Part shown: positions 11,656 to 57,673 of the stretch, one piece after another
Layout of the letters: every line of letters begins with the position of its first letter
How positions within the stretch are numbered: the first letter of the stretch is position 1
NCBI RefSeq assembly: GCF_001693735.1
Contig: NZ_LWDV01000009.1
Coordinates: forward strand, 294,589-358,588
DNA: 64,000 bases
Reading direction: 5' to 3'
Origin: Orenia metallireducens
GTDB lineage: Bacteria > Bacillota > Halanaerobiia > Halobacteroidales > Halobacteroidaceae
Position numbers and translations under genes: made by a program
Notes under the pieces: model-generated
What the model was told of the DNA's origin: nothing
Seen by the model: only the letters and a program-made list of their open reading frames with translations
The model's database searches: none

Positions 11656-12711
11656 TTAGTTGTTTATAAATTCAATTATTCTTTCTTTAATCTTCTCTAA
11701 ATCATCTTCTTCAATCTCTAAATCAAAATAATCACATTTATTCTGGGAATGTAGATAAAGTGGGTCATAATACTCAGTTAAGAGAATTTCAACCACTTTT
11801 TCTAGTTTTCCATTTTCACAGTAATTAACTAATTTATTATATTCTTTGTTACCAATCTTTTTAACTAGATGCTTCTTTATACAAGTTATAGCCTCTAAGG
11901 TTGCTTGTAGAAAGTGTTCTTCATCTTGATCATAGTTCCCTCTGTATTCATTAATGATTCTATCGATTCTGCTGTTCAGTGGGTTCTTAATTAAAGTATG
12001 GAGACCATTATTCATTGCTTCCAATAAAAAAGGAGGTAAGGTTGATATTCCTATTCGTTTACTTTCTGCTTCAATAGCAACGACTTTACTATCTTTTATT
12101 TCTTCTAACCTTTCCCATAATAAGGAATCAAACATTTTCTGATTTCTAGGCTGACCAAGACCAATGCTACCAAAAGCAGAGCCGCGATGGTTGGCTAACC
12201 CCTCTAAGTCTATTATTGCTATCCCAGCATCCTTTAATTTATATAATAAATCTGTCTTACCAATACCAGTAAAACCGTGAATTACCAATAGCTTAGCTGT
12301 CAATTGATAGTCTTGTAATTCTTTTAAAATAAAGTTACGATAAGCTTTATATCCTCCCTCTAGTTTATACACCTCAAAACCTGCTAGTTCACTAAATGTA
12401 GCAATACTTTCACTTCTCATGCCACCTCTAGCACAAAAGATTATCACATGCTGATAATTTTCGGTTAATTCTTTAATCTCTCTAATGATTTTAGGGATTT
12501 TAGGTGATACCAAATCCACTGCTAACAATCTAGCTGCAGCTGGACTCTGTTGAGTATAGATAGTTCCAACTTCAGATCTCTCTTCATTAGTAAAGATAGG
12601 GATATTGACCGCCCCAGGAATCGTTGATTCAGCAAATTCAGTTGGTGTTCGGACATCAACATAGATTACTGATTTTTTATTTAATAATTTCTGATAACTT
12701 ATTATTTTCAT
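11656..12711 (-). CDS. mnmH: tRNA 2-selenouridine synthase
   Basis: MnmH (SelU) replaces sulfur by selenium at the wobble 2-thiouridine of tRNA(Lys/Glu/Gln), using selenophosphate. The 351 residues comprise an N-terminal rhodanese domain with catalytic Cys93 (FCARGGMRS) and a P-loop domain with Walker A GFTGIGKT (146-153). The NHRGSAFG and GQPRNQ motifs are typical. It implies that the organism has selenophosphate synthase elsewhere. It is monocistronic; the IS982 element ends 43 bases beyond its stop. Confidence 0.96.
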   Translation of the reverse strand: MKIISYQKLLNKKSVIYVDVRTPTEFAESTIPGAVNIPIFTNEERSEVGTIYTQQSPAAARLLAVDLVSPKIPKIIREIKELTENYQHVIIFCARGGMRSESIATFSELAGFEVYKLEGGYKAYRNFILKELQDYQLTAKLLVIHGFTGIGKTDLLYKLKDAGIAIIDLEGLANHRGSAFGSIGLGQPRNQKMFDSLLWERLEEIKDSKVVAIEAESKRIGISTLPPFLLEAMNNGLHTLIKNPLNSRIDRIINEYRGNYDQDEEHFLQATLEAITCIKKHLVKKIGNKEYNKLVNYCENGKLEKVVEILLTEYYDPLYLHSQNKCDYFDLEIEEDDLEKIKERIIEFINN

Positions 12712-12952
12712 TTTAAAACTCTCCCATGTATAGTCTGTTCTTATTATTCTTTCTGTAAAGTTTATTTAACTCCTGCTTGATGTTGAATGAAAAGATATAA
12801 TTTCTTTAATTAAATTTATTTAATTATTAATAGTTTATTATAATATCCTAACAGAGAAATTTTATGAGTATAATATTCTATAATTTAGATAATAATGATT
12901 AAATAAATATAAAGGTCTTTTATAAAGATTTCTATATAATTAGATTCAGTGA

Positions 12953-13131
12953 CTTTTTTCTATTTATCACTTTCAAATCAGTAGTTCTATGGTATTAATA
13001 AATAATGTTATCATAGTTAAACTGAGATGTATTATCAAAAGAAGGAAATAGATATGGCAGAAGATAAGAGATATTTAATCCAGATCTGCGATTTTTTATG
13101 TAGCATGCTTATGATTAAATTAAATAAATAA
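12953..13131 (+). pseudogene. Duplicated miaB promoter and 5' end (miaB')
   Basis: Bases 12953-13082 repeat 22933-23061, the leader, ribosome binding site and first codons of intact miaB, with mismatches concentrated in the upstream spacer. It encodes MAEDKRYLIQ, identical to MiaB, and then diverges abruptly into unrelated DNA, ending after 25 codons at 13131. It is best read as the displaced end of miaB left when the 13.1-22.9 kb island inserted (attL-like). A simple segmental duplication cannot be excluded. Confidence 0.8.
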
Positions 13132-13427
13132 AAAAAGCCTAAGGCTAGTAAAATAGAGGAGTATTTAAAGATTTTTATTGTGTAAATTCTTTAATAAAGG
13201 ATGGAATTATAAAAGAAATAAAGGTTTTGAATGGCAATAATAAAGTCGCAAATTAATAATTAAAAGTGATATAAATTTGGAAGACATAAGAATTAAATCA
13301 TTGATATAATACTATAAGTTCAAACAGCAAGGGATAAGATTAAAAAGAGTCAAGAGCTTAAAAGCTTTTGGCTCTTTTGTTTTTCAGTAATATATATCCT
13401 ATTCTTAAAAGGGGATGTTGTCAATAA
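13132..13427. other. Gene-free left end of the island
   Basis: AT-rich DNA without a supported gene. A hairpin at 13342-13385 (AAGAGTCAAGAGCTT paired with AAGCTTTTGGCTCTT, then T residues) looks like an intrinsic terminator on the plus strand. No integrase or excisionase remnant was recognised. Confidence 0.45.
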
Positions 13428-13910
13428 ATGGATAAAGAAGAGACTAAAATAATTCAATGTAGTGGTAATAAGAGTGGTGGTTCTAGATGCACTAGAGAAA
13501 AGGAAATAGAGATAGATTTTGAAGGTAAGTGGTATTGCTAGCAGCACCAAAACAAGGCACAAAGTGTTACAGATATCGAAAATGAAGGATTGAGTCAAGA
13601 TCAACTTAAGGCTATAGACTTACTTATTTCAGGAGAGTTTACTAAGGCTGAAATAGCAAAAAAGTGTGACATTAGTAAAAGGCAGCTATATAGGTGGTTA
13701 GAGGAGGAAAATTTTAAATCAATTTATTATGAGAGATTAAATGAACTAAAGGATAAGTTTAACCCTAAGTTGCTTAATATGATTAATAATATTATGAAGT
13801 CGGCTCAACCAGAGGAGATAGACGATGAGCTGGATAAGATTGAGGCTTTGGAGAGGTTATTAGTTCTTAAGCGGGAGAAGAAGATTAGAGATTTCAGAAA
13901 TAACTTATGA
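13428..13910 (+). pseudogene. Phage terminase small subunit-like gene with in-frame TAG
   Basis: From ATG 13428 one reading frame continues to 13910, broken only by TAG at 13539-13541 (codon 38). The N-terminal part has a zinc-finger-like pattern (CSG, SRC, WYC*QH). The rest has a helix-turn-helix (TKAEIAKKCDISKRQLYRWLEE) typical of small terminase subunits. It lies immediately before and in frame with the terL remnant. The TAG could be a mutation or a readthrough codon; the damaged neighbours favour mutation. Confidence 0.65.
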
Positions 13911-14928
13911 GAGTTTTGTAAGACTATCTGTCCAGAGTTTTATCAAGAACATAGGTGGCATTGGAAGCTATTGTGTGGTACTTTGCAGAAGTTATATGAG
14001 GGAAATTTAGTTAATGAAGAGGGCAAAGTTTATACTAAGCTGGTGATGAATATGCCTTCTCGTCATGGGAAATCTAGAACCTTAATTAATTTCTGTAAAT
14101 GGGTATTGGGTAGGAAGAAGAGTAATAGGATTATCACCTGTAGCTATAATGATGCTGCCACTGATTTTTCTATATATACAAGGGATGGAATTATGGAGGT
14201 TAAGACCTATCCCCATGAGATTGTTTATGAGGATATCTTTCCTGAGAGTAAGATTAAGAAGGGAAATGCTATGCTCTGGTTTGTTATCAGAGAAGAGCTA
14301 TGAGAGTGTGAGAGTTAATATGGTGCCAGAGATATTCAGAGCAAATTATCATCAGGAGCCAATAGATCAGAAGGGTAAATTATATAAGTATTTTCAAACT
14401 TATGATAAATTACCTGAGAATTATGAGAGGATTATCTGTTATGTTGATACAGCTGATGAGGGTAATGATTATTTATGTGCTATTGTGGGAGTAGAGTATG
14501 AGGGAGAGGTTTATATAATTGATATTCTTTATACTAAGGGTGGAATGGAGGTTACAGAATCTCAGACTGCTGAGTTATTGGTAAGAAATAAGGTGAGTTA
14601 CTGTAAAATTGAGAGTAATAATGGTGGTCGTGGTTTTGCTAGAAATGTTGAAATGATATTATGGGAATATTACAGAAAAAGGAGTATTGATATTCAATGG
14701 TTTCATCAGAGTAAGAATAAGAAGGCGAGGATAATAGCGAATAGTAGCTTTGTGATAAATCACATTTACTTCTCTGAGGATTGGAGGTATAGATGGGCTA
14801 AGTATTATGAGTCAATGAATAGCTATCAGAAAGAGGGGAGAAATAGAAATGATGATGGACCAGATGCTACTACTGGATTAGCTGAGATGGTGAATGAAGG
14901 ATTTGAGTTGAGGATAGGGAGAGTGTAA
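13911..14928 (+). pseudogene. Phage terminase large subunit, internally deleted
   Basis: The N-terminal frame (13911-14303) begins in frame just after the small-subunit stop with CPEFYQEHRWHWKLL, then MPSRHGKSRT (Walker A) and SYNDAATDFS, and ends at FVIREEL*. The C-terminal frame (14281-14928, a different frame) resumes at RANYHQEP and covers the nuclease domain (YVDTADEGNDYL, ESNNGGRGFARN, DDGPDA). The ~150 residues with Walker B and the coupling motif are missing. The gene is therefore dead by deletion plus frameshift, and it lacks a clear start codon. Confidence 0.82.
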
Positions 14929-15194
14929 AAGATCAATTTACAGTGTACAGTTTACAGTTAAGACCGTTAGAAAATAAAGAGCAGAGGATAAGGGATAGAG
15001 GATAGTGAAGATTAAAAACAAGAACTTTTTAGTCCCAGATAAAAGAAGATAAATAAAAACATAAGATGATATTTTTGGAGGGATATGGTGGATTATGGAG
15101 AAATAGTTGTTAATAATATAGAAGTTCAAAATCAAAATTATGTTGATTAAATTTAATTTTTATTTTTATAATTTTTTAACAGGGAGATGGTCTA
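14929..15194. other. Spacer with a tacagtttacag-type repeat
   Basis: AT-rich gene-free DNA. At 14943-14962 it carries ACAGTGTACAGTTTACAGTT, one arm of the small palindrome family also found between mutS, mutL and miaA. No partner arm is nearby. Confidence 0.45.
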
Positions 15195-16004
15195 ATGGAG
15201 TTTACTGGGGGAAGTGCATTACATAATGGAGTTCGGTTTTCATCTACACATAAAACTGTTACTGTTACAATTAATGAAGATGATGAATTTAATACAAAAA
15301 TAGAAGATAATCTTGCTGTAAAGAAAAAAATACTTTTTAAAGGTGAAAGATTTATTAAGAAAATTCCTTTTATTAGAGGTTTTTATGATTTATTTAGATA
15401 TAATATTGAACTAATTGTAGTTTTTATAATTACTTTGTTTGTTGATTTAATTAATAATAATTATGATAAAATTAGTGGCTTAATTAGCAATGATCCAGAT
15501 GGTACAAAAAGTGAGATTGTTTTTGTGATTTTAAATATCTTTATTATTATAATTTTAATAATACTTTCGATAAAATCTATTAAAGAGATAATTAATCATT
15601 TAAAATTCTTAAAATTAACTCATGAATTTCACGGTGCTGAGCATAAGACAATTAATGCTTATTATGATCATAAAGACTTATCTATTGAGAAGGTTAGAAG
15701 AGCAAGCAGAGTAGCCTATGGATGCGGTACTAGTTTTTTAGCTTTTTGGATAACATGCTCTTTTTTATCGTTGTTCTTCTATAGAGGGTTTATGATTATA
15801 AATATAATCCTAGGTTATTCACTAGGCTATGAAATTTTTAAAATTAAGAAGGGGGAGAAAGTATTAGGTATATCTCTTTTTTATAAGTTATCTGCTTGGT
15901 TTCAGGATAAATTGTTTACAAGGGAACCTAGTGATAAGCAAATAGAGGTGGCTATATTTGCTTTTGAGACATTATTGGAAGAGGATAATAGGATAGATAA
16001 ATAA
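15195..16004 (+). CDS. DUF1385 membrane protein (YqhQ-like)
   Basis: A 269-residue membrane protein. It shows the DUF1385 pattern MEFTGGSALHNGVRF, a central membrane pair, FHGAEHKTINAYYDH, RRASRVAYGCGTSF and further hydrophobic segments. The HGAEHK and CGTSF motifs led to the family's annotation as a possible metal-dependent enzyme; no activity is established. AGGGAGATGG precedes the ATG. It is intact although both neighbours are phage pseudogenes, so it is either cargo or a separate arrival in the island. Confidence 0.85.
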   Translation: MEFTGGSALHNGVRFSSTHKTVTVTINEDDEFNTKIEDNLAVKKKILFKGERFIKKIPFIRGFYDLFRYNIELIVVFIITLFVDLINNNYDKISGLISNDPDGTKSEIVFVILNIFIIIILIILSIKSIKEIINHLKFLKLTHEFHGAEHKTINAYYDHKDLSIEKVRRASRVAYGCGTSFLAFWITCSFLSLFFYRGFMIINIILGYSLGYEIFKIKKGEKVLGISLFYKLSAWFQDKLFTREPSDKQIEVAIFAFETLLEEDNRIDK

Positions 16005-16181
16005 TGAATTACTTGATTTACCAAATTTAGGTTATAAGCTTATGGCTATAAATTTTAATAGATTAAAGGAATGTTAAGATAGTATGGTTAGTCATTAAAG
16101 ATTAATCTTCATCAGTGGCATATCTCATTAAAGAGGTGTGCTTTTTTATTTGATATTTAGATATAAATTGAGGTGATTAAG

Positions 16182-16400
16182 GTGAGAGTATTTAAAAAAT
16201 ATATCAAAGAAATATTACTTTGTTTAGCTTGGCTAATAGGTTGGGGGTTAACTACCTTGGCTTTTGTAGATTTATATGGTTTTTGGATATGGAAGTTAAG
16301 TTGTGGGTTATTATTATTAGGAGTAGTAGGATATAGATTTATCTTCAAAATTATGGTTGATAGATTATATATGCTGTCTTTAGAGGAAAAAGAAGATTAG
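16182..16400 (+). CDS. Small membrane protein of the prophage remnant
   Basis: A 72-residue protein with two hydrophobic segments (EILLCLAWLIGWGLTTLAF and LSCGLLLLGVVGYRF) and an acidic tail. GAGGTGAT lies just before GTG 16182, preferred over GTG 16173, which sits inside that site. Its stop is three bases from the portal remnant, so it was part of the phage late operon. Its function is unknown. Confidence 0.5.
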   Translation: MRVFKKYIKEILLCLAWLIGWGLTTLAFVDLYGFWIWKLSCGLLLLGVVGYRFIFKIMVDRLYMLSLEEKED

Positions 16401-16403
16401 GAG

Positions 16404-17560
16404 GTGATGATTATTAATATTTTTAAGAAGGTAGCAAAGGGTTTACAGGTTGAAGCTAATGCTAATCGTCCGAGATTAATGCCTAGTTATAGAATTGGTA
16501 AGCCACAGTTTAAGGATTGGAATACTGAAAGGGCTATTAATGAAGGGTTTAAGGTATCGACTTATGTTTATTCTTGTGTTTATCGGATTATGAAGGCTGT
16601 GGCTAGTATACCATTAAAGATTTATGAGGATGGGGAGTATAACCCAGAGCATCTTTTACAGGTGTTGTTGGATGACCCTCATCCTTTTTATAGTATGCAG
16701 GATATTATGGAGCGGATGGCTGCTCATTTGTATCTTGGGGGAATTCGATTATTCAAATAGTTAGGTTGGATAGTAAGGGAGGATTGCCAGTAGAGTTATT
16801 TCCTCTTAACCCCGATAAGGTCAGTCCTGTTCCTGACCAAGCGACTTTTATTAGTCATTATGAGTATAATATTGGGGATAGAATAGAGAGATTAGAAGCT
16901 AAGGATATAATTCATGATATGTTTACTGATCCTGCTAATCCTTATTGGGGGATGAGTCCATTACAGGTTGCTGCTATGATTGTAGATACTGATGTGGAAG
17001 CTATAAAATGGAATAAGGTTACGATGCAGAATCGAGCTATCACTGAGGGGGTCTTTGCTTTTAAGCATGATTTAACAGGTGCTCAATATAAGGAAGCTAA
17101 GGAGCATGTGAGGGAGCAGTATAGTGCTAAAGGGTGTGGACCGTGGGTTTTGGGGAATGAAGTGGAGTATATTCCGATGAGCTTAAGCCCTACTGAGATG
17201 GATTTTATCGAGTCAAGGAAGATGACTAGGGAGGATATTTGCTCTATCTTTCAGGTTCCTCTTCCAATGGTGGGAATTTATGATAAGGCTACTTTATCTA
17301 ATATTGAGACAGCGAGAAAGATATTCTGGTTAGATGGTATTATTTCTTATCTAAAGAATGTATTAGATACGTTAAATAAGAGCTTAGCTAAAGAGTTTGG
17401 TGATAATGTAGAGATTAAGGCTGATACCAGTATAGTTAAAGCGTTACAGGAGAATTTGAATGAGAAGGTAGATGCTGCTTATAAATTTAAACAGATGGGC
17501 TGGTCCTTAGAAGAGATTAACGAGAGATTGGATTTAGGATTTTCTAAGAGCAAGGGATAA
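16404..17560 (+). pseudogene. HK97-type phage portal protein, frameshifted
   Basis: Portal proteins form the dodecameric channel through which DNA is packaged. The first frame (16404-16760, 118 residues) carries STYVYSCVYRIMKAVASIPL and LLDDPHPFYS. It stops at LGGIRLFK*, whereas the adjacent frame reads NSIIQIVRLDSKGGLP and continues to 17560 with the family motifs DIIHDMF, GMSPLQVAAM and FQVPLPMVGIYDKATLSN. A single missing base near 16740 explains the break. The combined ~385 residues are slightly short, suggesting 3' loss as well. Confidence 0.88.
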
Positions 17561-17582
17561 GGGATGGCAAAATTAGTATTAT

Positions 17583-17628
17583 GAATAGAGCGAGGGGGAT
17601 TAATTATATATTCCTTCTCGCTCTATTC
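17583..17628 (+). terminator. Hairpin at the end of the portal remnant
   Basis: GAATAGAGCGAGGG pairs with CCTTCTCGCTCTATTC. The loop and right arm overlap the last codons of the convergent gene at 17600-17803, so it may serve either strand. There is no long T run. Confidence 0.55.
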
Positions 17629-17803
17629 TCTGTTTAATTCGTAATAGTCTCCTTTTTTCAAAGAATAGTTGAATTCTCTCTAAGGAATCTGCTGGATATT
17701 GTCTGATTTCTCTGTCTAGCTCCTTCATCATAGAGTCGATTCTATTAATATAGTCTGATTCTGTGGGAGGAATATCTAATGATAATTGTTGATGTTTCTG
17801 CAT
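17600..17803 (-). CDS. Small helical protein, unknown
   Basis: A 67-residue, highly charged, probably all-helical protein (MMKELDREIRQY, then RRLLRIKQRIEREG). Its length and heptad-like spacing recall small phosphatase or anti-activator peptides, but no signature such as the Spo0E SxxxD motif is convincing. GGCGGTGG lies six bases before the ATG. It faces the phage genes and flanks the structured RNA. Confidence 0.5.
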   Translation of the reverse strand: MQKHQQLSLDIPPTESDYINRIDSMMKELDREIRQYPADSLERIQLFFEKRRLLRIKQRIEREGIYN

Positions 17804-17939
17804 AAGACCACCGCCTTAATTAAGTTATTTGTATACTACTAGTATGCCTATATTATGCTAAAGATATGCAGAGTTTCAATAAATAATGCAAAGTTATGAT
17901 AAAAAATATTAAGTATATAACATAAGTTATTCCCGAACA

Positions 17940-18540
17940 TATTATCCTCACAACCAGCAATTTCTTTTGATGCTGTAAGGAGAAAAGGTCAAGGAGGAAC
18001 GCAAGTATGAGTAGTCCTTGATGTTTTCGACTGCAAGCATATAATTAGCAGGATTACGAGATACTATCGTGCTATGAATATGGTTGGATTTTTAAGGTTT
18101 TATCTCCCGGAAGCAACCTGAGGACAGATGAGAAACTGATGTGTCATTTCTCATCGCCTCAAATCGTGTCTCTCAATCTTCCCTGTCCCCTATTTAATGC
18201 AACCGTAATTGGCGAAGTGATCTGCTGAGCCTGTTCAGGAAGGGAGTTAAAGGGATAGGGGGTTTGGGGGAAAGGGGATGAGGGAAACAATGGGGTTGCG
18301 AAAAGTGCAGAATAGTTGAGGTAGAAGTAGTAATTTTATTGTCTTTATAGCTAGCATGGTTTTTATGCTGGCTGGGGAGGGAGATGCTCTTAGCTGAGTG
18401 TAAGTCCTGGAAAGCAGGATAGATACGGGAGTTCTGTGTTAACAGGTTGTAGATATCTTGCTTGGAAGGACTGGAACGGGCGTGGTTTTTAGGGATTGTG
18501 ATAGCAGGTGATTGTGCTGCTATGACTATCCCTTATATTT
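17940..18540 (+). ncRNA. Large structured non-coding RNA (~0.6 kb)
   Basis: This stretch is markedly richer in G+C than its surroundings, has no protein-like frame and is full of complementary segments. Examples are TCAAGGA 17989-17995 with TCCTTGA 18015-18021; GATGAGAAA 18127-18135 with TTTCTCATC 18147-18155; TGAGG 18119 with CCTCA 18157; CCCCTAT 18187 with ATAGGGG 18255; GCAACC 18199 with GGTTGC 18294; and AGTCCT 18403 with AGGACT 18467. The CCCCTAT and GCAACC pairings cross, implying a pseudoknot or alternatives. It ends in a terminator-like hairpin (GGGAT..ATAGCAG / CTGCTAT..ATCCC, 18492-18532). Size and prophage location recall the ROOL and GOLLD giant RNAs, but class membership is not established. 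The strand is inferred from the 3' hairpin. Confidence 0.75.
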
Positions 18541-18723
18541 ATATAGTATGACTTTATAGTAGTGATAGCCGAGATAAAAATTATAATTTATTTTTAAAGA
18601 GAAATGATAGTAAGTGAAGAATTAATGTTGACTATAGTATAAAAAATCGTAAGTTTTGAGTTCAGAATTAAAGACTTTTGTTCTTAAGTTAATAGCTCAT
18701 AACTTACGACTATTTTCTCTTAT

Positions 18724-19263
18724 TTAATATGATTCTATAAATTTATCAAGTATATCTTTAGCTTTGGCTACAACTCTAGGATGTGCACTTTTAGCACCTT
18801 TGAAATTTCTCTTCTTTTCATCTTTATAAATACCAAATCCATCCAAATCATAGGCTACCATCATTGATTTAGCTAAAGGTTGGTCAATTACTAGAAACCA
18901 TTCTCTAATTAAGGGATGTCTCTTAGGTAGATAAATAAATTCTATGTTAGGATGTGACTTTAAATTATCATCTTTTTCACCAAAGATATAGACTTTATCT
19001 ACATTATCGGCTATTTTTAGAAAACGGTCCCATATAGCACGTGCTCTAGAAATTTTTTGGAACCCAGCATAGACTGTTGCAGCTACCTTCTTTTTAAGTA
19101 CTACTTGTTCCATAATGTAACACATTCTCTCTAACTTAGGTATGTCAGATTCGAATTTTAAAGAAGTAGAACGTAACTTATTATCACTAACATCTCCTCG
19201 CAAATCTTCCACAGGTGATTCTAAATCAGAAAAAATATTTTGATATAAAGAAATTTTATCCAT
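18724..19263 (-). CDS. DICT sensory domain protein
   Basis: A 179-residue soluble protein. After ~45 residues it shows a DICT-like core: CYIMEQVVLKKKVAATVYAGFQKISRARAIW, VDKVYIFGE, EWFLVIDQPLAKSMMVAYDL. DICT domains occur with cyclic-dinucleotide, two-component and MerR/B12 photoreceptor systems and have been proposed to sense light or small ligands. It is the last gene of a probable three-gene minus-strand operon with the RibU-like transporter (31-bp gap) and the XRE/B12 regulator. The family call rests on recalled motifs. Confidence 0.65.
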   Translation of the reverse strand: MDKISLYQNIFSDLESPVEDLRGDVSDNKLRSTSLKFESDIPKLERMCYIMEQVVLKKKVAATVYAGFQKISRARAIWDRFLKIADNVDKVYIFGEKDDNLKSHPNIEFIYLPKRHPLIREWFLVIDQPLAKSMMVAYDLDGFGIYKDEKKRNFKGAKSAHPRVVAKAKDILDKFIESY

Positions 19264-19294
19264 CTTAAATCCCTCCTATGTTAATTAATAGTCT

Positions 19295-19876
19295 TTATTG
19301 GTTTTTAACATAATTTAAATCTAATTTCTTATTTAAAAGATAGGTTAAAGTAGTTAAAACACCTCCTTTAATAAGGTTAAAAGGAATAATAATAAAGATT
19401 AGATAGCTATTTAGATCTTTAATATATGGATTGACTTGTTGACTTAGTTTAATTATATTATCCAGTGAAATATTTAATATATTTTCATAGAGAGGTATAA
19501 TAATTATTAAATTTACTATTACTGCTGTGATTGTCATAACAAAGCTACCAATAATTAAAGATTTGAGAATAGAAAGATTATGATTATTATATAAATAACT
19601 ACTACTACCTACTAAACTAGCTCCAATAAGAAAGTTACTTAATTCTCCAATTCCTAGATTAGAGGAAATAAGTAGATGTAATAAGTTTTTTATTAAAATA
19701 ATACCTATAGCAATAATAGGATTGTAGATAAATCCAACAATTAAAGGTACAGTATCGCTAATATCTAACTTTAAGAAGAAAGGCATAAAGGGCAAATTAA
19801 TTTCAAAAAACATAATAAAAAAAGAAAGTACCCCAAAAATAGCTATATTAACGACTCTTTTAGTTTTAGATTCCAT
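19295..19876 (-). CDS. ECF transporter S component, RibU-like
   Basis: A 193-residue membrane protein with about six hydrophobic segments. KLDISDTVPLIVGFIYNP, then a LIKNLLHLL helix and GELSNFLIGASLVG, match the riboflavin-specific S components (RibU). S components bind vitamin and dock on the shared EcfT/EcfA energy module, which must be encoded elsewhere. No FMN riboswitch precedes it. Its place between a B12-type sensor and a DICT protein suggests that flavin supply is tied to that regulator. Riboflavin specificity is probable, not certain. Confidence 0.75.
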   Translation of the reverse strand: MESKTKRVVNIAIFGVLSFFIMFFEINLPFMPFFLKLDISDTVPLIVGFIYNPIIAIGIILIKNLLHLLISSNLGIGELSNFLIGASLVGSSSYLYNNHNLSILKSLIIGSFVMTITAVIVNLIIIIPLYENILNISLDNIIKLSQQVNPYIKDLNSYLIFIIIPFNLIKGGVLTTLTYLLNKKLDLNYVKNQ

Positions 19877-19917
19877 CTGTCACACCTCCTTTATCTAATT
19901 CAAATTAAATTTTTATT

Positions 19918-20817
19918 TTAAGTCTTATCATTTACTAAATCTTTAGCTATTTCAACAGCTGATTGTGCATTAGTAGCATAGGCATCTGCACCAGTCTTTT
20001 TCCATGAATTTTTATCGTACATAAAAGCTTGCCCACCAACTATAGTTTTTATTTCTTTAGCAGAACTTACTGCCTTGATTAAATTTGTAACTCCATTAAC
20101 ATTAAAGGGCAGTGTTGCTGAGATGATTAGGATATCAGCCTTTTTTTCTTCAATGTATTTAATAATACTATCAGTAGGAGTATTTATTCCTAAGTAATAA
20201 CTATTCCAACCTTCCATTTCAAAAAAATCAGCTACCATTCTCAATCCAAGATAATGAGACTCTCCAATTGATGTTACAGCGACAATAGAGTAATCTTTTT
20301 TTTGATTATTTTCTATATATGGATAGAGTTGATCTATGATTGATAGGGTAGCATGAGTAAAATAATGTTCATGAGCTACACTAATCTTATTTCTCTCCCA
20401 GAGTTTACCTACTTCATATAAAGCAGGTTCAAATACATGTAAGTAGATTTCTTTAATTGTTATTCCTTGTTTGATGACTCCTAATATTAATTGGCTTGCT
20501 TCTCTTTTCTTGCCTTTTAATAATAAATTAAAGTAATTTTTTCTTAACTTTATAAAGGTATCTTCTTTATTTTCTATATCAATAGTTGAATCAATATCTG
20601 AACTAATTTCTTTCATTTTAGTTCTACCTAATAAATAATCAAGGGATACATTAAAATAACCTGCAATTTGATTTAAAATCTCTTGTTTTGGAAATCTATT
20701 ATTTTGTTCATAGTTAGCTATGGTAGTTTGACTTAATCCTAATTCTTGAGCTAAGTCTATTTGCCGTAATCCTCTTTTTTTTCTTAATTTTTTTAATTTG
20801 GAAGCGAAATCACTCAA
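19918..20817 (-). CDS. XRE-type HTH regulator with CarH-like B12-binding domain
   Basis: A 299-residue regulator. Residues ~5-60 are an XRE/Cro helix-turn-helix (RQIDLAQELGLSQTTIANYE). Residues ~85-165 are a B12-capping four-helix bundle, and ~175-295 a Rossmann-type cobalamin domain. W140 and E150-H151 (W-x9-EH, in LWERNKISVAHEH) are the light-sensing signature of CarH, and ESHYLG (H188) is the cobalt-ligand motif. In CarH, adenosylcobalamin drives tetramer formation and repression, and light breaks it. Here the usual MerR head is replaced by an XRE head. The start is TTG 20817, seven bases after GGAGAG; an upstream extension to 20880 would cross the operator palindromes. Confidence 0.85.
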   Translation of the reverse strand: MSDFASKLKKLRKKRGLRQIDLAQELGLSQTTIANYEQNNRFPKQEILNQIAGYFNVSLDYLLGRTKMKEISSDIDSTIDIENKEDTFIKLRKNYFNLLLKGKKREASQLILGVIKQGITIKEIYLHVFEPALYEVGKLWERNKISVAHEHYFTHATLSIIDQLYPYIENNQKKDYSIVAVTSIGESHYLGLRMVADFFEMEGWNSYYLGINTPTDSIIKYIEEKKADILIISATLPFNVNGVTNLIKAVSSAKEIKTIVGGQAFMYDKNSWKKTGADAYATNAQSAVEIAKDLVNDKT

Positions 20818-20838
20818 TATTAACTCTCCTTTTATTAA

Positions 20839-20877
20839 TGTGTATACACAAATAATATCACAAAATGTGATATTATT
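20839..20877. promoter_or_regulatory. Two adjacent palindromic operators upstream of the B12 regulator
   Basis: TGTGTATACACA (20839-20850) is a perfect 12-bp palindrome. It directly abuts AATAATATCAC-aaaat-GTGATATTATT (20851-20877), a perfect 11-bp inverted repeat with a 5-base spacer. They lie 22-60 bases before the TTG start of the XRE/B12 gene. This is where an autoregulator would bind. Operator function is inferred. Confidence 0.7.
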
Positions 20878-21008
20878 CAAATGATAGTTTTATTTTATCT
20901 TTAATATGAGGAGAAGATATTATTTAAATTTAAATAATACCACAAAACGAAATAAAAGATAGGGGTATATATTTTACTATATGAGATTTAGAAATAATTC
21001 TATATTAT

Positions 21009-21150
21009 GGCGAAGTGGTCTGTCGAGCCTGTTCAGGAGGAAGTTAAAAGAAAAGAGGGTTGGGGGAAAGAGAATGAAGGAAACAATGGGCTTTGCTTTT
21101 AGGAATTGTGATAGCAGGTGGTTGTGCTGCTATGACTATCCCTTTTTTTA
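21009..21150 (+). ncRNA. Internally deleted copy of the structured RNA
   Basis: Bases 21009-21093 match 18211-18300 (GGCGAAGTG, GAGCCTGTTCAGGA, GGGGGAAAG, GGAAACAATGGG). Bases 21094-21145 then match the 3' hairpin at 18489-18535, including ATAGCAGGTG and GTGCTGCTATGACTATCCC, here followed by seven T residues. The ~190 bases between these blocks and the 5' third are absent. It is a relic or minimal paralogue and shows that the 3' hairpin and the central block are separable units. Confidence 0.75.
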
Positions 21151-21411
21151 GTTTCAAGAATATTTTAGAGGTATAAAATAGATTATCTAAAACATAAATG
21201 AAATAAAGATAAATTTTATAATTTAATCCAAGTTATTAAGAGTTCAGAAATGATAACTATTAAATATGTTTGTAATTTAAGCATGTATACAAAAAAGTGA
21301 TTAGCTCAGAGTATATTAAAAGTTTTTAAGCTAATATTGTTATATTCTTCAAATAATTTAAGAGGGGAAAATTTTATGAATGAAAAATTTAAATCTTATT
21401 TTAGTAACAAA

Positions 21412-22875
21412 ATCACCACTTTATAAGTTTGACTAAGCAACTTTATCTTTTTCTAAAAAATAATTAACAGCCTTTTGAATCTTAGAATAAATTTTGCTAC
21501 TTTCGAGTGAAGATACGAAACTATCAAAAATTAATTCCTTAGTAAGTCTATCAGCTATAGTTCTTTTTATTACTTGAGGACTTTTAAATTTATATTGCTC
21601 AAATTTTAGGTCTATAAATGGTAGTACTGAAACAAAAGTATAAGTAATGGCGAGTAAATTAACATACCTTTCTATAGCTTTTTTATTTCTTACCATATAG
21701 TTGCCAAAAGACCAGAAAAATTTATGCTGATAAAAGATAACTTCTATATTCCATCTAATATTATAAGCACAAAGTGGTACTTGCTTAAAATCAGTATTAT
21801 CATATTTGGTTTTTTCGACATCGTGATTTTTAAAAATATTAATCTCATCTGGAGTAATAGTACAAATAAATAACCTTGTAGAAGAAAATTTATCAATATC
21901 TTTAGTTGTAACTGTAATATATACTGGAACTTTAAAGAGTCTAGTCATCACCTTTCGAGTAGAAATGAAATATTTATTAGCCTTTTCATAAGAAAAGGCA
22001 TGAATATCTAATTTGTCACCTCTAAGTCTAGGTCTACCACGCTTTCCATTATGTTTAGGTGGCAAATCAAAAATTGCAGTATCTTTTCTTACTGCACCTA
22101 TTAAATCTAAGTTATCGTAAGAACTAACAGTATTAAGAACAGAACCTTTAGTGTACCAACTGTCACATAAAAGGATAACTTGGTATGATTCCAACAAATT
22201 CATTACAGTATCTATTAATTTTGAGGCTAATTCAAGTTTACTCTTACTTTTATCATAGAGTTTATAGCCTATTGGCAAACTTAAATATCTAATTTGCCCC
22301 TTATGTTTTAAAGGAATATTAATAACTAGAGATACAAAACAATGTCCTTTTAGATAAGAACTTCCTGTTCTACTGGTATGGTCGAAAATCCTATAATAAC
22401 AGTCAAATTTATTACCATACTTTGCTTGTAAAGTATCATCTATACTTAGGAATATTGTTGTATCCCGTTGGGATACATTAATTAAGTTAAGTACTATTCG
22501 TAAAGTACAAAGCATTAACTTTTCTATAGAGAAATTAGTATAAGATAAAAAGTAGTAAAAAGAATTTAAAGCCTTATTGCTATACTTACTAATGAAATTA
22601 TCATATAAAAAATTTATAGATCTTATTTCTTCCATAGAAATTATAGCCAATACTAGCCAATGAAATATTTGAAAACTTGGTTTTGTGAAAATAGAACGAT
22701 ATTTTAATAAATATTGTTTTAATGTTTGGTTTATTGAATTATTGGGAATATTAATCATAGTCAGGCACCTCCTAGGTGTATTTTTCTCTGATATGATTAT
22801 TATTCCTAGGATTAAGGTGTCTGATTTTGTTATTTTTAGGTAACTTGTTTATCTAATTTCTTGTAAAGTGGTGTT
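21412..22875 (-). mobile_element. IS element, complete copy (IS4/IS701-like)
   Basis: About 1.46 kb, bounded by imperfect inverted repeats CACCACTTTATAAG (from 21414) and CTTGTAAAGTGGTG (to 22873). It carries one intact transposase. A target duplication could not be fixed with confidence. It lies between the RNA relic and the miaB promoter, inside the right end of the island. The part 22127-22875 appears identical to window bases 1-749. Confidence 0.88.
21433..22758 (-). CDS. DDE transposase (IS4/IS701-like)
   Basis: A 441-residue transposase, intact. It shows SIDDTLQAKYG with the first catalytic Asp, SRTGSSYLKGHCF, LLCDSWYTKGSVL with the second Asp, and IRWNIEVIFYQHKFF with the catalytic Glu. 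This arrangement fits the DDE_5/IS701-like branch of the IS4 superfamily. GGAGG at 22763-22767 (complement) precedes the ATG at 22758. Confidence 0.9.
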   Translation of the reverse strand: MINIPNNSINQTLKQYLLKYRSIFTKPSFQIFHWLVLAIISMEEIRSINFLYDNFISKYSNKALNSFYYFLSYTNFSIEKLMLCTLRIVLNLINVSQRDTTIFLSIDDTLQAKYGNKFDCYYRIFDHTSRTGSSYLKGHCFVSLVINIPLKHKGQIRYLSLPIGYKLYDKSKSKLELASKLIDTVMNLLESYQVILLCDSWYTKGSVLNTVSSYDNLDLIGAVRKDTAIFDLPPKHNGKRGRPRLRGDKLDIHAFSYEKANKYFISTRKVMTRLFKVPVYITVTTKDIDKFSSTRLFICTITPDEINIFKNHDVEKTKYDNTDFKQVPLCAYNIRWNIEVIFYQHKFFWSFGNYMVRNKKAIERYVNLLAITYTFVSVLPFIDLKFEQYKFKSPQVIKRTIADRLTKELIFDSFVSSLESSKIYSKIQKAVNYFLEKDKVA

Positions 22876-22932
22876 GATTATTTTTAAAATCACTTTTAAT
22901 TTAGATGAAAAATTTCATATAATAAATAATAG

Positions 22933-23061
22933 CTTTTTTCTATTTATCACTTTTAAATCAATCTGTTTATGTTATAATATATAATGTTATAGTTTAGAAA
23001 TTGAGATGTATTATCAAAAGGAGGAAATAAATATGGCAGAGGATAAGAGATATTTAATCCA
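22933..23061 (+). repeat. miaB promoter/5' end, right copy of the island-flanking repeat
   Basis: This is the functional counterpart of 12953-13082. It includes TATAAT-like hexamers around 22972-22982, AAGGAGG at 23018-23024 and the first ten miaB codons. The pair brackets ~9.9 kb containing phage genes. If the island integrated within miaB, this 5' end would be the element-borne copy that restored the gene (attR-like). Confidence 0.75.
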
Positions 23062-24361
23062 AACCTATGGTTGCCAGATGAATGAGCACGATTCAGAAAA
23101 ACTGGCAGGGGTATTAGAGTGTGAAGGGTATCGTCCAACTGAAGAGTTAACAGAAGCTGACATTATCATTTTAAATACATGCTGTGTACGTGAGAATGCC
23201 GAATTGAAGGTCTATGGTAAAGTAGGACAACTTAAGAGATTAAAGGAAAAGAATCCTGATTTAATTATTGGAATCTGTGGATGTATGATGCAACAAGAAG
23301 ATGTAGTTAATGAGATTAAGACAAAATATCGCCATGTAGATATAGTTTTTGGTACTCATAATATACACCACTTCCCTGAGTTATTGAAGCAAGCTAAAGA
23401 GCAGAAGAATCCATTAGTACAGGTCTGGGATGAGAATACAGAGTTGATTCCAGATATGCCAGTACAACGGACTGATGACCACAGAGCCTGGGTTACTACT
23501 ATCTATGGATGCAATAACTTCTGTACGTATTGTATCGTTCCTTATGTAAGGGGAAGAGAGAAGAGCCGTCCAATTGAAGATATAGTTAGAGAGGTAGAAG
23601 AGCTATCTGCTGATGGGGTTAAGGAGGTTACTTTATTAGGTCAGAATGTAAACTCTTATGGTAATGATTTTGAAAATAAGACTGATTTTGCCGATTTATT
23701 AACAGCCCTTAATGAAGTTGAGGGTCTAGCTAGAATTAGATTTATGACCTCCCATCCAAAAGACTGTAGCGATAGATTAATTGAAGCTGTAGCTAAGTTG
23801 GAGAAGGTCTGTGATCACTTCCACTTACCAGTACAAGCTGGAAGCAATAAAGTACTTAAAGCTATGAATAGAAATTACACTCGTGAAGAATATATGGATT
23901 TAATTGAGCGGGTTAGAGCCAAAAATCCTAATGCGGCTATCAGTACTGATGTAATTGTTGGCTTCCCAGGTGAAAGTGAAGAGGATTTCCAGGATACCTT
24001 AGATTTATTTGAAAAAGTAGAGTATGATATGGCATATAGTTTTATGTACTCTAAGAGAACAGGTACTCCCGCTGCTAAGATGGAAGAGCAGGTTCCAGAT
24101 GATATCAAAAATGATAGATTACAAAGATTGATTGATTTACAGACTAAAATCAGTATGACTAAGAATCAACCATATCTCAATCAAACAGTAGAGGTATTGG
24201 TTGAGGGAGAGAGCAAGAATAACCCTGATACTTTAACAGGTAGAACTACTAGTAATAAGATAGTTATATTTGAGGGTGACAAGAATTTGACAGGGCAACT
24301 AGTTAATGTTAAAATAGACAAGGTACAGAGCTGGACTTTATATGGAACAATAGTCGATTAA
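23033..24361 (+). CDS. miaB: tRNA i6A37 methylthiotransferase
   Basis: MiaB adds a 2-methylthio group to N6-isopentenyladenosine at tRNA position 37, acting after MiaA, which is encoded 8 kb downstream. The 442 residues contain the N-terminal cluster cysteines C14, C50 and C84, the radical-SAM triad C160-x3-C164-x2-C167 (GCNNFCTYC), and a C-terminal TRAM domain. ATG 23033 follows AAGGAGG; an upstream in-frame start at 23006 has none. The promoter region is the right copy of the island-flanking repeat. Confidence 0.97.
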   Translation: MAEDKRYLIQTYGCQMNEHDSEKLAGVLECEGYRPTEELTEADIIILNTCCVRENAELKVYGKVGQLKRLKEKNPDLIIGICGCMMQQEDVVNEIKTKYRHVDIVFGTHNIHHFPELLKQAKEQKNPLVQVWDENTELIPDMPVQRTDDHRAWVTTIYGCNNFCTYCIVPYVRGREKSRPIEDIVREVEELSADGVKEVTLLGQNVNSYGNDFENKTDFADLLTALNEVEGLARIRFMTSHPKDCSDRLIEAVAKLEKVCDHFHLPVQAGSNKVLKAMNRNYTREEYMDLIERVRAKNPNAAISTDVIVGFPGESEEDFQDTLDLFEKVEYDMAYSFMYSKRTGTPAAKMEEQVPDDIKNDRLQRLIDLQTKISMTKNQPYLNQTVEVLVEGESKNNPDTLTGRTTSNKIVIFEGDKNLTGQLVNVKIDKVQSWTLYGTIVD

Positions 24362-56048: not shown

Positions 56049-57627
56049 AAAAGTAGTACTCTAGATCAATCTTTCCTTTATCATAGATAATCTTTTTAAT
56101 GATACTCTGTAAGAGGTTTCTTTGGTCTTCAAAGTTCATAGTATCAAAATTTTCTTCAAATAGGTCTAACTGGCTTCTTAGATATTCTTCAGAGTAGAGC
56201 TCATTAGAGTGTTCTAGGATTTGGCTATCTATACTCTGTAGCTCAAGCTCTAATTTATTTCTTTTAGCAGCCAGTTCCTCTGCTTCTTCTTCAATGATAG
56301 TGATTAGGTGTTCAGAGCTTAACTTCTTAAGTTTACTGATTAAATTCTTCTCTTCAGCAGTTATCTCCTTTAATTTAGTATTAATCTCTTCTGCTTTATT
56401 CTTCAAAAGGGTGATAGATTCCTGGAGTTCATCCTTCAAATTTCCAATCTCTTTACTTAGATTGTCCTTTTTACATAATTCTTTAAGGCGAGCGATTACT
56501 AAATTCTCAGCATACTCAGCTTTAGTGGATTGACCTTCACAGACTATCTCTCCCATGTTGCGGCCTCGACATTTATAGTAGCTATAGTCTTTCTTGCTAC
56601 CATCAGCTAAAGTCTTAGTAGAAGAGTAATAGGTCATAGCCCTACCACAATCAGAGCATTTGAGTAGATAGGCTAATAGTCCTTTGACTCCAGTTCCTGC
56701 TCTAGAAGGTCTATTTGCTCGTCTGTCACGCTTTCTCTGAGTCTTAATATAAAGATCAGAAGAGACTATCCCATTATGTTCTGCTACAGCTATGAGCCAT
56801 TTAGATTTATCTCTAACTGCACCGATTTCATTTTTAGACTTTCTACGGTTATATCTAAGCAGTGCTTTTTTTCCATCGATTGCTTCTTGATTAAAGACCT
56901 CTATATCCTGCTTCTCAAAGTAAGCTATAATTTCCTTATCAGCAATGCAATAGAGGGGATTGGCCAAAATTTCACCAATGCGTGATGGAGCCCAGGTCTT
57001 ACCGTTAGAAGATTTAATCTTGGCTTTGTTGGCCCGTTGAGCAATCTGATTGAGGCTTCCTCCAGGCTCTAGATACCAGGTATAGAATTGTTTAATTATT
57101 TCTGCTTCTTCTTGATTTATCTCTAAGCCTTCATCGGTTAAGTTATATCCATAGGGGGTGGTCCCACCATTCCATTGACCATTGGCTGCATTTCTAAGTA
57201 AATTATCTTTGACTCTCTCTGAGGTCATTTCACTTTCAAACTGGGCAAAGTCTACTAGTATATTTCTAATAAGTCTACCGATAGGGGTAGAGGTATCAAA
57301 CTGTTGGGTAATAGAGACAAAGTTGACCTCATACTTATCTAGTACCTTCATATAATTATGGAAGTCGGTAACTGATCTAGCAAAGCGGTCTAGTTTGTAG
57401 ACCATTAGATAGTCAGCATTTAGGTTATCTCGCTTGATGTTTTGAAATAGCTTTTGAAAGGCTGGTCTATTAGAAGAGCGACCAGAGTAGTCTAGGTCTA
57501 TGTAAGTGTCTACTAGCTCAATATCTTGTAGCTTGCAGTATTGTTTGATCTTTTCTAATTGAGTATCTTGGGTAATCATTCCATCGCGGGCTTTTGATAC
57601 TCTGATATAGGCTATAGCTTTTTTCAT
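56047..57627 (-). CDS. Large serine recombinase (phage/skin-element integrase type)
   Basis: A 526-residue site-specific recombinase. The catalytic resolvase domain spans ~1-145 (nucleophile S11 in YIRVSKARDG; YKLDRFARS). The recombinase domain is ~155-270 (GTTPYGY). A zinc ribbon has C324, C327, C353 and C363, and a long coiled coil covers ~390-510. Such enzymes integrate and excise prophages and the sigK skin element without host factors, aided by a directionality factor. The frame is intact. It converges on the truncated ferritin-like gene. Confidence 0.95.
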   Translation of the reverse strand: MKKAIAYIRVSKARDGMITQDTQLEKIKQYCKLQDIELVDTYIDLDYSGRSSNRPAFQKLFQNIKRDNLNADYLMVYKLDRFARSVTDFHNYMKVLDKYEVNFVSITQQFDTSTPIGRLIRNILVDFAQFESEMTSERVKDNLLRNAANGQWNGGTTPYGYNLTDEGLEINQEEAEIIKQFYTWYLEPGGSLNQIAQRANKAKIKSSNGKTWAPSRIGEILANPLYCIADKEIIAYFEKQDIEVFNQEAIDGKKALLRYNRRKSKNEIGAVRDKSKWLIAVAEHNGIVSSDLYIKTQRKRDRRANRPSRAGTGVKGLLAYLLKCSDCGRAMTYYSSTKTLADGSKKDYSYYKCRGRNMGEIVCEGQSTKAEYAENLVIARLKELCKKDNLSKEIGNLKDELQESITLLKNKAEEINTKLKEITAEEKNLISKLKKLSSEHLITIIEEEAEELAAKRNKLELELQSIDSQILEHSNELYSEEYLRSQLDLFEENFDTMNFEDQRNLLQSIIKKIIYDKGKIDLEYYF

Positions 57628-57673
57628 GATATCACTCCTTCTTATTTAATTATAAATTAATGGAGATAAAAAA

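Follow-up and report, generated by a model that had tools for sequence, protein, structure and literature searches.

A doubled miaB start around a decayed phage-related island, and integrative elements at the same codons in Halanaerobiia and Clostridia

The start of miaB is present twice in the window, the 64,000-nucleotide stretch of DNA analysed here, which belongs to an Orenia-like genome (Halanaerobiia). The island between the two copies is very probably what is left of an integrative element. In the phage-related family to which it is assigned, a large serine recombinase (LSR), or serine integrase, would insert the element in the first miaB codons, at T-(Y/W/F)-G-C, and so split the gene; the right junction was probably restored to native sequence later. 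The island is a remnant derived from this miaB-targeting LSR family and not a working member of it. This reading draws on the junctions, on the recombinases and gene content of relatives, and on the decay in the window, all of which are seen in the sequence. The features concerned are the following.

11656 to 12711, reverse strand: mnmH, the left flanking gene outside the island, by homology to O. metallireducens.
12953 to 13082, forward strand: left copy, the B half-site or host half of attL, in which a decayed miaB promoter, ribosome binding site (RBS) and ATG (13054) precede about 9 codons.
13083 to 13134, forward strand: the crossover core in decayed form, then a P' arm that stems from the element and holds a stop codon (13129-13131), by the match of the P' arm to relatives.
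13428 to 13910, forward strand: TerS (small terminase), a pseudogene by premature stop; PHROG 2538, 68.7% to Halonatronum TerS.
13851 to 14928, forward strand: TerL (large terminase), a pseudogene with about 107 middle residues lost; tblastn pieces 10-150 and 258-480 of 480, PHROG 30251.
15195 to 16004, forward strand: DUF1385 membrane protein (Pfam PF07136), between terminase and portal.
16173 to 16400, forward strand: 75-aa membrane protein, a conserved neighbour of the portal gene, 50% to an 81-aa Halonatronum protein.
16404 to 17563, forward strand: portal, split by a frameshift near 16757; 82-87% to the Halonatronum portal, Pfam PF04860.
17600 to 17803, reverse strand: 67-aa conserved reverse-strand gene beyond the portal, 68.7% to its Halonatronum counterpart.
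18724 to 20880, reverse strand: three genes without phage character (Pfam), for a DICT-domain protein, a membrane protein, and a regulator with HTH and B12-binding domains.
21433 to 22758, reverse strand: IS transposase (DDE_5, Pfam PF13546), 175 bp left of the right copy.
22933 to 23066, forward strand: right copy, with the miaB promoter (TATAAT, 22973-22978), RBS (GGAGG, 23020-23024), ATG at 23033 and a host-type half-site.
23033 to 24361, forward strand: intact miaB, 86-94% identical to miaB of two congeners in an unbroken match.

The earlier note had described a duplicated segment of about 130 bp with promoter, RBS and ten codons of miaB at both borders, and this is confirmed: 12953-13087 corresponds to 22933-23066 at 84-86%, the repeat search of the window giving 86% for 12996-13087 against 22975-23066 and 84% for 12953-12995 against 22933-22975. 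In a search of the whole 3.47 Mb genome the miaB 5' region matches, apart from its own position, the left copy only (86%, E 1.4e-36), and there is no third copy. The -10 element of the right copy matches those of relatives, and that of the left copy is degraded. In the left copy the RBS lies at about 13041-13045 and the ATG at 13054 starts a 25-codon ORF with its stop at 13131, the initial 9-10 codons of which are miaB codons; the codons of the two copies are identical at 28 of 31 bases. No tRNA gene that might serve as an alternative att site is present in the window, and no Rfam family matches its 12-24 kb portion.

Aligned base by base, the homology of the copies extends through the core, AACCTATGG (23062-23070) on the right and GATCTGCGA (13083-13091) on the left, and the five differences between these are all transitions (5/5), the pattern that decay of a duplicated sequence would produce. 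At 12953-13134 a truncated miaB 5' end stops at the T-(Y/W/F)-G-C codons and is followed by a P' arm, and positions 12954-13134 are 79.6% identical to the left copy of Orenia metallireducens MSL40 (taken as a sister species; O. metallireducens below). The score of the window P' arm against that of O. metallireducens or Halonatronum was reached by 0 of 2000 shuffles, and its score against the P' arms of two further genomes, G010 and G012, by about 40 of 2000. The left copy is identical to the O. metallireducens B half-site at 21 of 24 positions. The right copy agrees with the host-type half-site (B, attL) of O. metallireducens at 23 of 24 positions and with the element-type half-site (P, attR) at only 10 of 24, and thus looks native, the decayed copy being the left one; an element-type P half-site before the miaB body (attR) is absent from the window. 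On this comparison the miaB start of the window is probably native in type, the right copy here not having been supplied by the element.

In O. metallireducens, which likewise has two miaB-start copies, the truncated copy reads MAKDKKYLIQTYGCPCNIARMIKLNI up to a stop and is followed by a terminator-like hairpin, with a 570-aa LSR about 1.5 kb past it together with ImmA-like and CI-like genes. The miaB gene proper has new first codons, MTLLKDKKEHRGFYLTVTYGCQ, and upstream of it lie a PDC-S18 gene, PglZ, PglX, BrxC, BrxB and BrxA, and then an amidase, a holin and a head-tail connector. The att core is common to attL and attR in every pair read (AACCTACGGTTGTC in O. metallireducens), and the conserved miaB start MAKDKKYLIQTYGC-QMNEHDSEK is recovered when the two host halves from O. 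metallireducens are put together. Both element ends lie on one contig in Halonatronum saccharophilum DSM 13868, where the truncated start occupies about 7.8-7.96 kb and the miaB gene, its first codons new, lies at 81 kb, some 73 kb away, and the LSR is 64% identical to that of O. metallireducens. The order there is attL, LSR, repressor-like genes, anti-repressor, DnaD- and DnaC-like loaders, TerS, TerL, portal, protease, capsid and connector, then holin, endolysin, an Ssp/Dnd-type system, CRISPR III-B genes and miaB. The succession of TerS, TerL, membrane protein, portal and reverse-strand gene is common to Halonatronum and the window, and the slot that holds the DUF1385 gene in the window is occupied by other genes in relatives.

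The miaB-linked LSR family was found in 4 of the 59 genomes of the class, the remaining two being G010 and G012, whose LSRs adjoin truncated miaB starts. Tape-measure and further tail genes are present on the contig of G010, whose LSR is of the same kind, so that the same integration module also serves tailed elements. Of the four relatives, Halonatronum is the one with both element ends on a single contig; in O. metallireducens, G010 and G012 they are on different contigs, which counts against the explanation. Each species is represented by one genome. The earlier note had the element supplying miaB with a new promoter and start, and this is true of the relatives in which the right end was read, which have an element-supplied promoter, start and codons; it is not supported for the window, with its right half-site of host type. 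The element-type sequence left of the core in attR, GGTTTCTATCNAACT, is common to O. metallireducens and G012 and unlike the host-type attL, and every intact element read has a distinct P half-site. The left copy in the relatives keeps a good promoter, RBS, and short ORF with stop and terminator. In another member of the bacterial family (G005:C1:932000-951900) CRISPR-associated genes lie upstream of miaB; no related LSR was found in that genome, and the genes may be cargo from an older element at the same site.

A profile built from the O. metallireducens and Halonatronum LSRs was used to search for further elements, and matched in Clostridium ihumii, C. peptidivorans, an Alkaliphilus MAG, a Clostridium MAG and IMG/VR contigs. 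At all four clostridial loci and in the IMG/VR contigs L095 and L097, the end adjoins a short ORF in which a miaB start breaks off at (E/I/S)-T-(W/Y/F)-G-C and is closed by foreign codons or a stop; in three other IMG/VR contigs with LSR matches the flank was too short or held no miaB start. The phage records FP_Brigit and MT835491 have related LSRs (41-43% identical) with no miaB start at the ends examined, and so no free attP was seen. Integration into the miaB 5' end, as the earlier note proposed, is supported by LSRs beside truncated miaB starts in four other Halanaerobiia, four clostridial genomes and two virus contigs. The predicted site of the related recombinases spans the conserved cysteine codon and is thus likely to be present in many Clostridia-related bacteria.

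The mechanism that we infer would begin with recombination by the LSR at the T-(Y/W/F)-G-C codons, splitting miaB. The left end would retain the old promoter and first codons, to which the element, in intact relatives, adds a stop and often a terminator-like hairpin, and at the right end an element-borne promoter, RBS, start and new codons would be fused to the remaining miaB, whose expression should persist because this end supplies promoter and start. In the window the right junction would subsequently have been overwritten with native sequence, with the left copy as donor in a gene conversion or a native allele as partner in recombination. The attR site was thus probably restored to native sequence and the element trapped, the loss of attR blocking excision, which fits the decay.

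Three other histories can be set against this one. The right copy could be, along the lines of the earlier note, the element's own P arm, bearing in this lineage a host-like promoter and codons, with the left copy as the original host 5' end; the element itself would have restored miaB, with no later conversion. In every relative read the promoter and start do come from the element, and the codons on the two sides agree at nearly all bases, but the right half-site is of host and not phage type, and the intact elements all have a distinct P half-site, making this version unlikely. Duplication of the miaB start as part of a segment or by an IS, with no integrase and with phage fragments arriving separately, would suit the IS close to the right copy, the others nearby and the lack of an integrase in the island; it is highly improbable, however, given that the left copy stops exactly at the crossover core of the LSR elements and is followed by their P' arm, and that the phage genes belong to the same element. 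That the left copy functions as a regulatory leader or encodes a short peptide, instead of being a scar, is scarcely credible: the good promoter, RBS and terminated short ORF of the relatives' left copies would speak for such a function, but in the window both the -10 and the RBS are degraded, and the short ORF is unconserved beyond the core.

Integration followed by restoration of the right junction does not account equally well for the whole island. No LSR or other integrase is present within it (13.1-22.9 kb), so that its own integrase has to be deduced from relatives, which counts against the explanation. The description of the copies as bracketing phage genes holds for the left half of the island, with its broken terminase-portal module, and fails for the right half, where the three non-phage genes and the IS are found; this half is unaccounted for by the integration model and also counts against it. 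The membrane protein among the three resembles, from its sequence, an ECF S component. A second, distant LSR is encoded at 56563-57630 of the window, about 32-35% identical to the miaB-linked LSRs and unlinked to miaB, and was rejected as the island integrase on these grounds; the tyrosine integrases of the window genome are located elsewhere in the genome and were likewise set aside. A dispersed, structured-looking repeat occurs at 18205-18560, about 0.7 kb after the portal module, and at 21008-21150, with 17 matching pieces in three genomes and no Rfam match; related copies follow portal genes on two contigs of O. metallireducens and occur elsewhere in the genus.

Homology to O. metallireducens around mnmH runs from 11665 to 12936 and stops 17 bases before the left copy. 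In relatives, mnmH or its neighbour had been expected by the earlier note to be directly linked to miaB, and this was not found, although in O. metallireducens attL lies about 20 kb from mnmH on the same contig, compared with 240 bp in the window. The gene nearest attL is an arabinofuranosidase there and mnmH here, so that the outer flank has been rearranged in one or the other, a further point against the explanation. As an ancestral miaB neighbour in the family mnmH was rejected, since no other genome in which the two genes were located has them linked. No relative was seen to carry the island genes at the same place without the duplication, the case that the note had named as refuting. O. 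metallireducens also has a piece of a portal gene 1.8 kb from mnmH (G001:C10:94232-94583), outside the miaB-linked element.

Over the 85 nt before the ATG, the attL and attR promoters of the same genome are 96% identical in O. metallireducens, 87% in Halonatronum, 93% in G010 and 98% in G012, and at background level (64-73%) in Alkaliphilus, C. peptidivorans and C. ihumii, percentages that disregard gaps and are inflated for AT-rich sequence, so that local scores against shuffles are the better guide. These scores are 103 to 175.5 in the four Halanaerobiia (shuffle maxima 36.5 to 51.5) and 35.5 to 44.5 in the three Clostridia (shuffle maxima 37.5 to 58), the best cross scores between genera being about 35 to 66. 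In all four Halanaerobiia lysogens, the predicted new miaB promoter of the element is a near-copy (87-98%) of the host's own, which was unexpected. Such a match could have arisen if aberrant excision captured the host promoter, if gene conversion homogenised the two copies in the lysogen, or through both. On balance, a slight preference goes to serine-integrase phages and islands specialised on the miaB start, of which those of Halanaerobiia would bear the miaB promoter and leader of their own host, the copy being re-acquired or homogenised in each host lineage; miaB would then be expressed as before in the lysogen, even as large defence systems enter at this site. Defence genes lie between the ends in two relatives, BREX in one and the Ssp/Dnd-type system with CRISPR III-B genes in the other. 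The host-matched promoter raises the question of where the phage-borne copy originates and whether tRNA modification stays constant in lysogens.

Capsid-forming phage-inducible islands (cf-PICIs) carry capsid and packaging genes without tail genes, and a helper phage induces them and supplies the tails. The Halonatronum element resembles them in its terminase, portal, protease, capsid and one connector, and differs in the presence of holin and endolysin and in the size of the interval between its ends. No clear tail gene was found among the Halonatronum proteins searched (a subset of ORFs), with two weak tail matches in one 1085-aa protein, and O. metallireducens has connector, holin and amidase in the same order. 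Two genera, represented by Halonatronum (G004:C7:28684-41474) and by the end of an O. metallireducens contig (G001:C25), contain phage-like elements in which terminase, portal, protease, capsid, connector, holin and endolysin occur and no clear tail gene was seen; these are possibly capsid-forming satellites or tail-deleted prophages.

Neither miaB as an LSR or integration target nor host-matched promoters at such elements were found reported in the literature searched, most subscription journals lying outside its coverage. With sequence-defined attL/attR pairs from several hosts, miaB joins the few protein genes that mobile elements enter and rebuild at the 5' end. The islands at dusA insert in the 5' end of a tRNA-modification gene, replacing it and bringing promoter-like sequence, and their integrases form a separate family, a 21-bp semiconserved repeat marking each end (PMC4482086). 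As with the miaB elements, the new 5' end comes from the element, the original 5' end lies at the other border, and both prophages and islands act as carriers; target gene and integrase family differ, and the parts of that report drawn on here do not mention a host-matched promoter (PMC4482086). A new promoter and start at the gene-proximal end, as at dusA, is found in the intact relatives of the miaB elements and not in the window. Burkholderia phage JC1 has a serine recombinase and integrates at the 5' end of rimO with an 18 bp shared core (PMC9144972), and is like the miaB elements in having a serine recombinase, in its short core and in entering the 5' end of a methylthiotransferase gene, rimO being a miaB paralogue, and unlike them in the target itself and in its unrelated host (PMC9144972). 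Given the dusA and rimO precedents, the type of event at miaB is already known.
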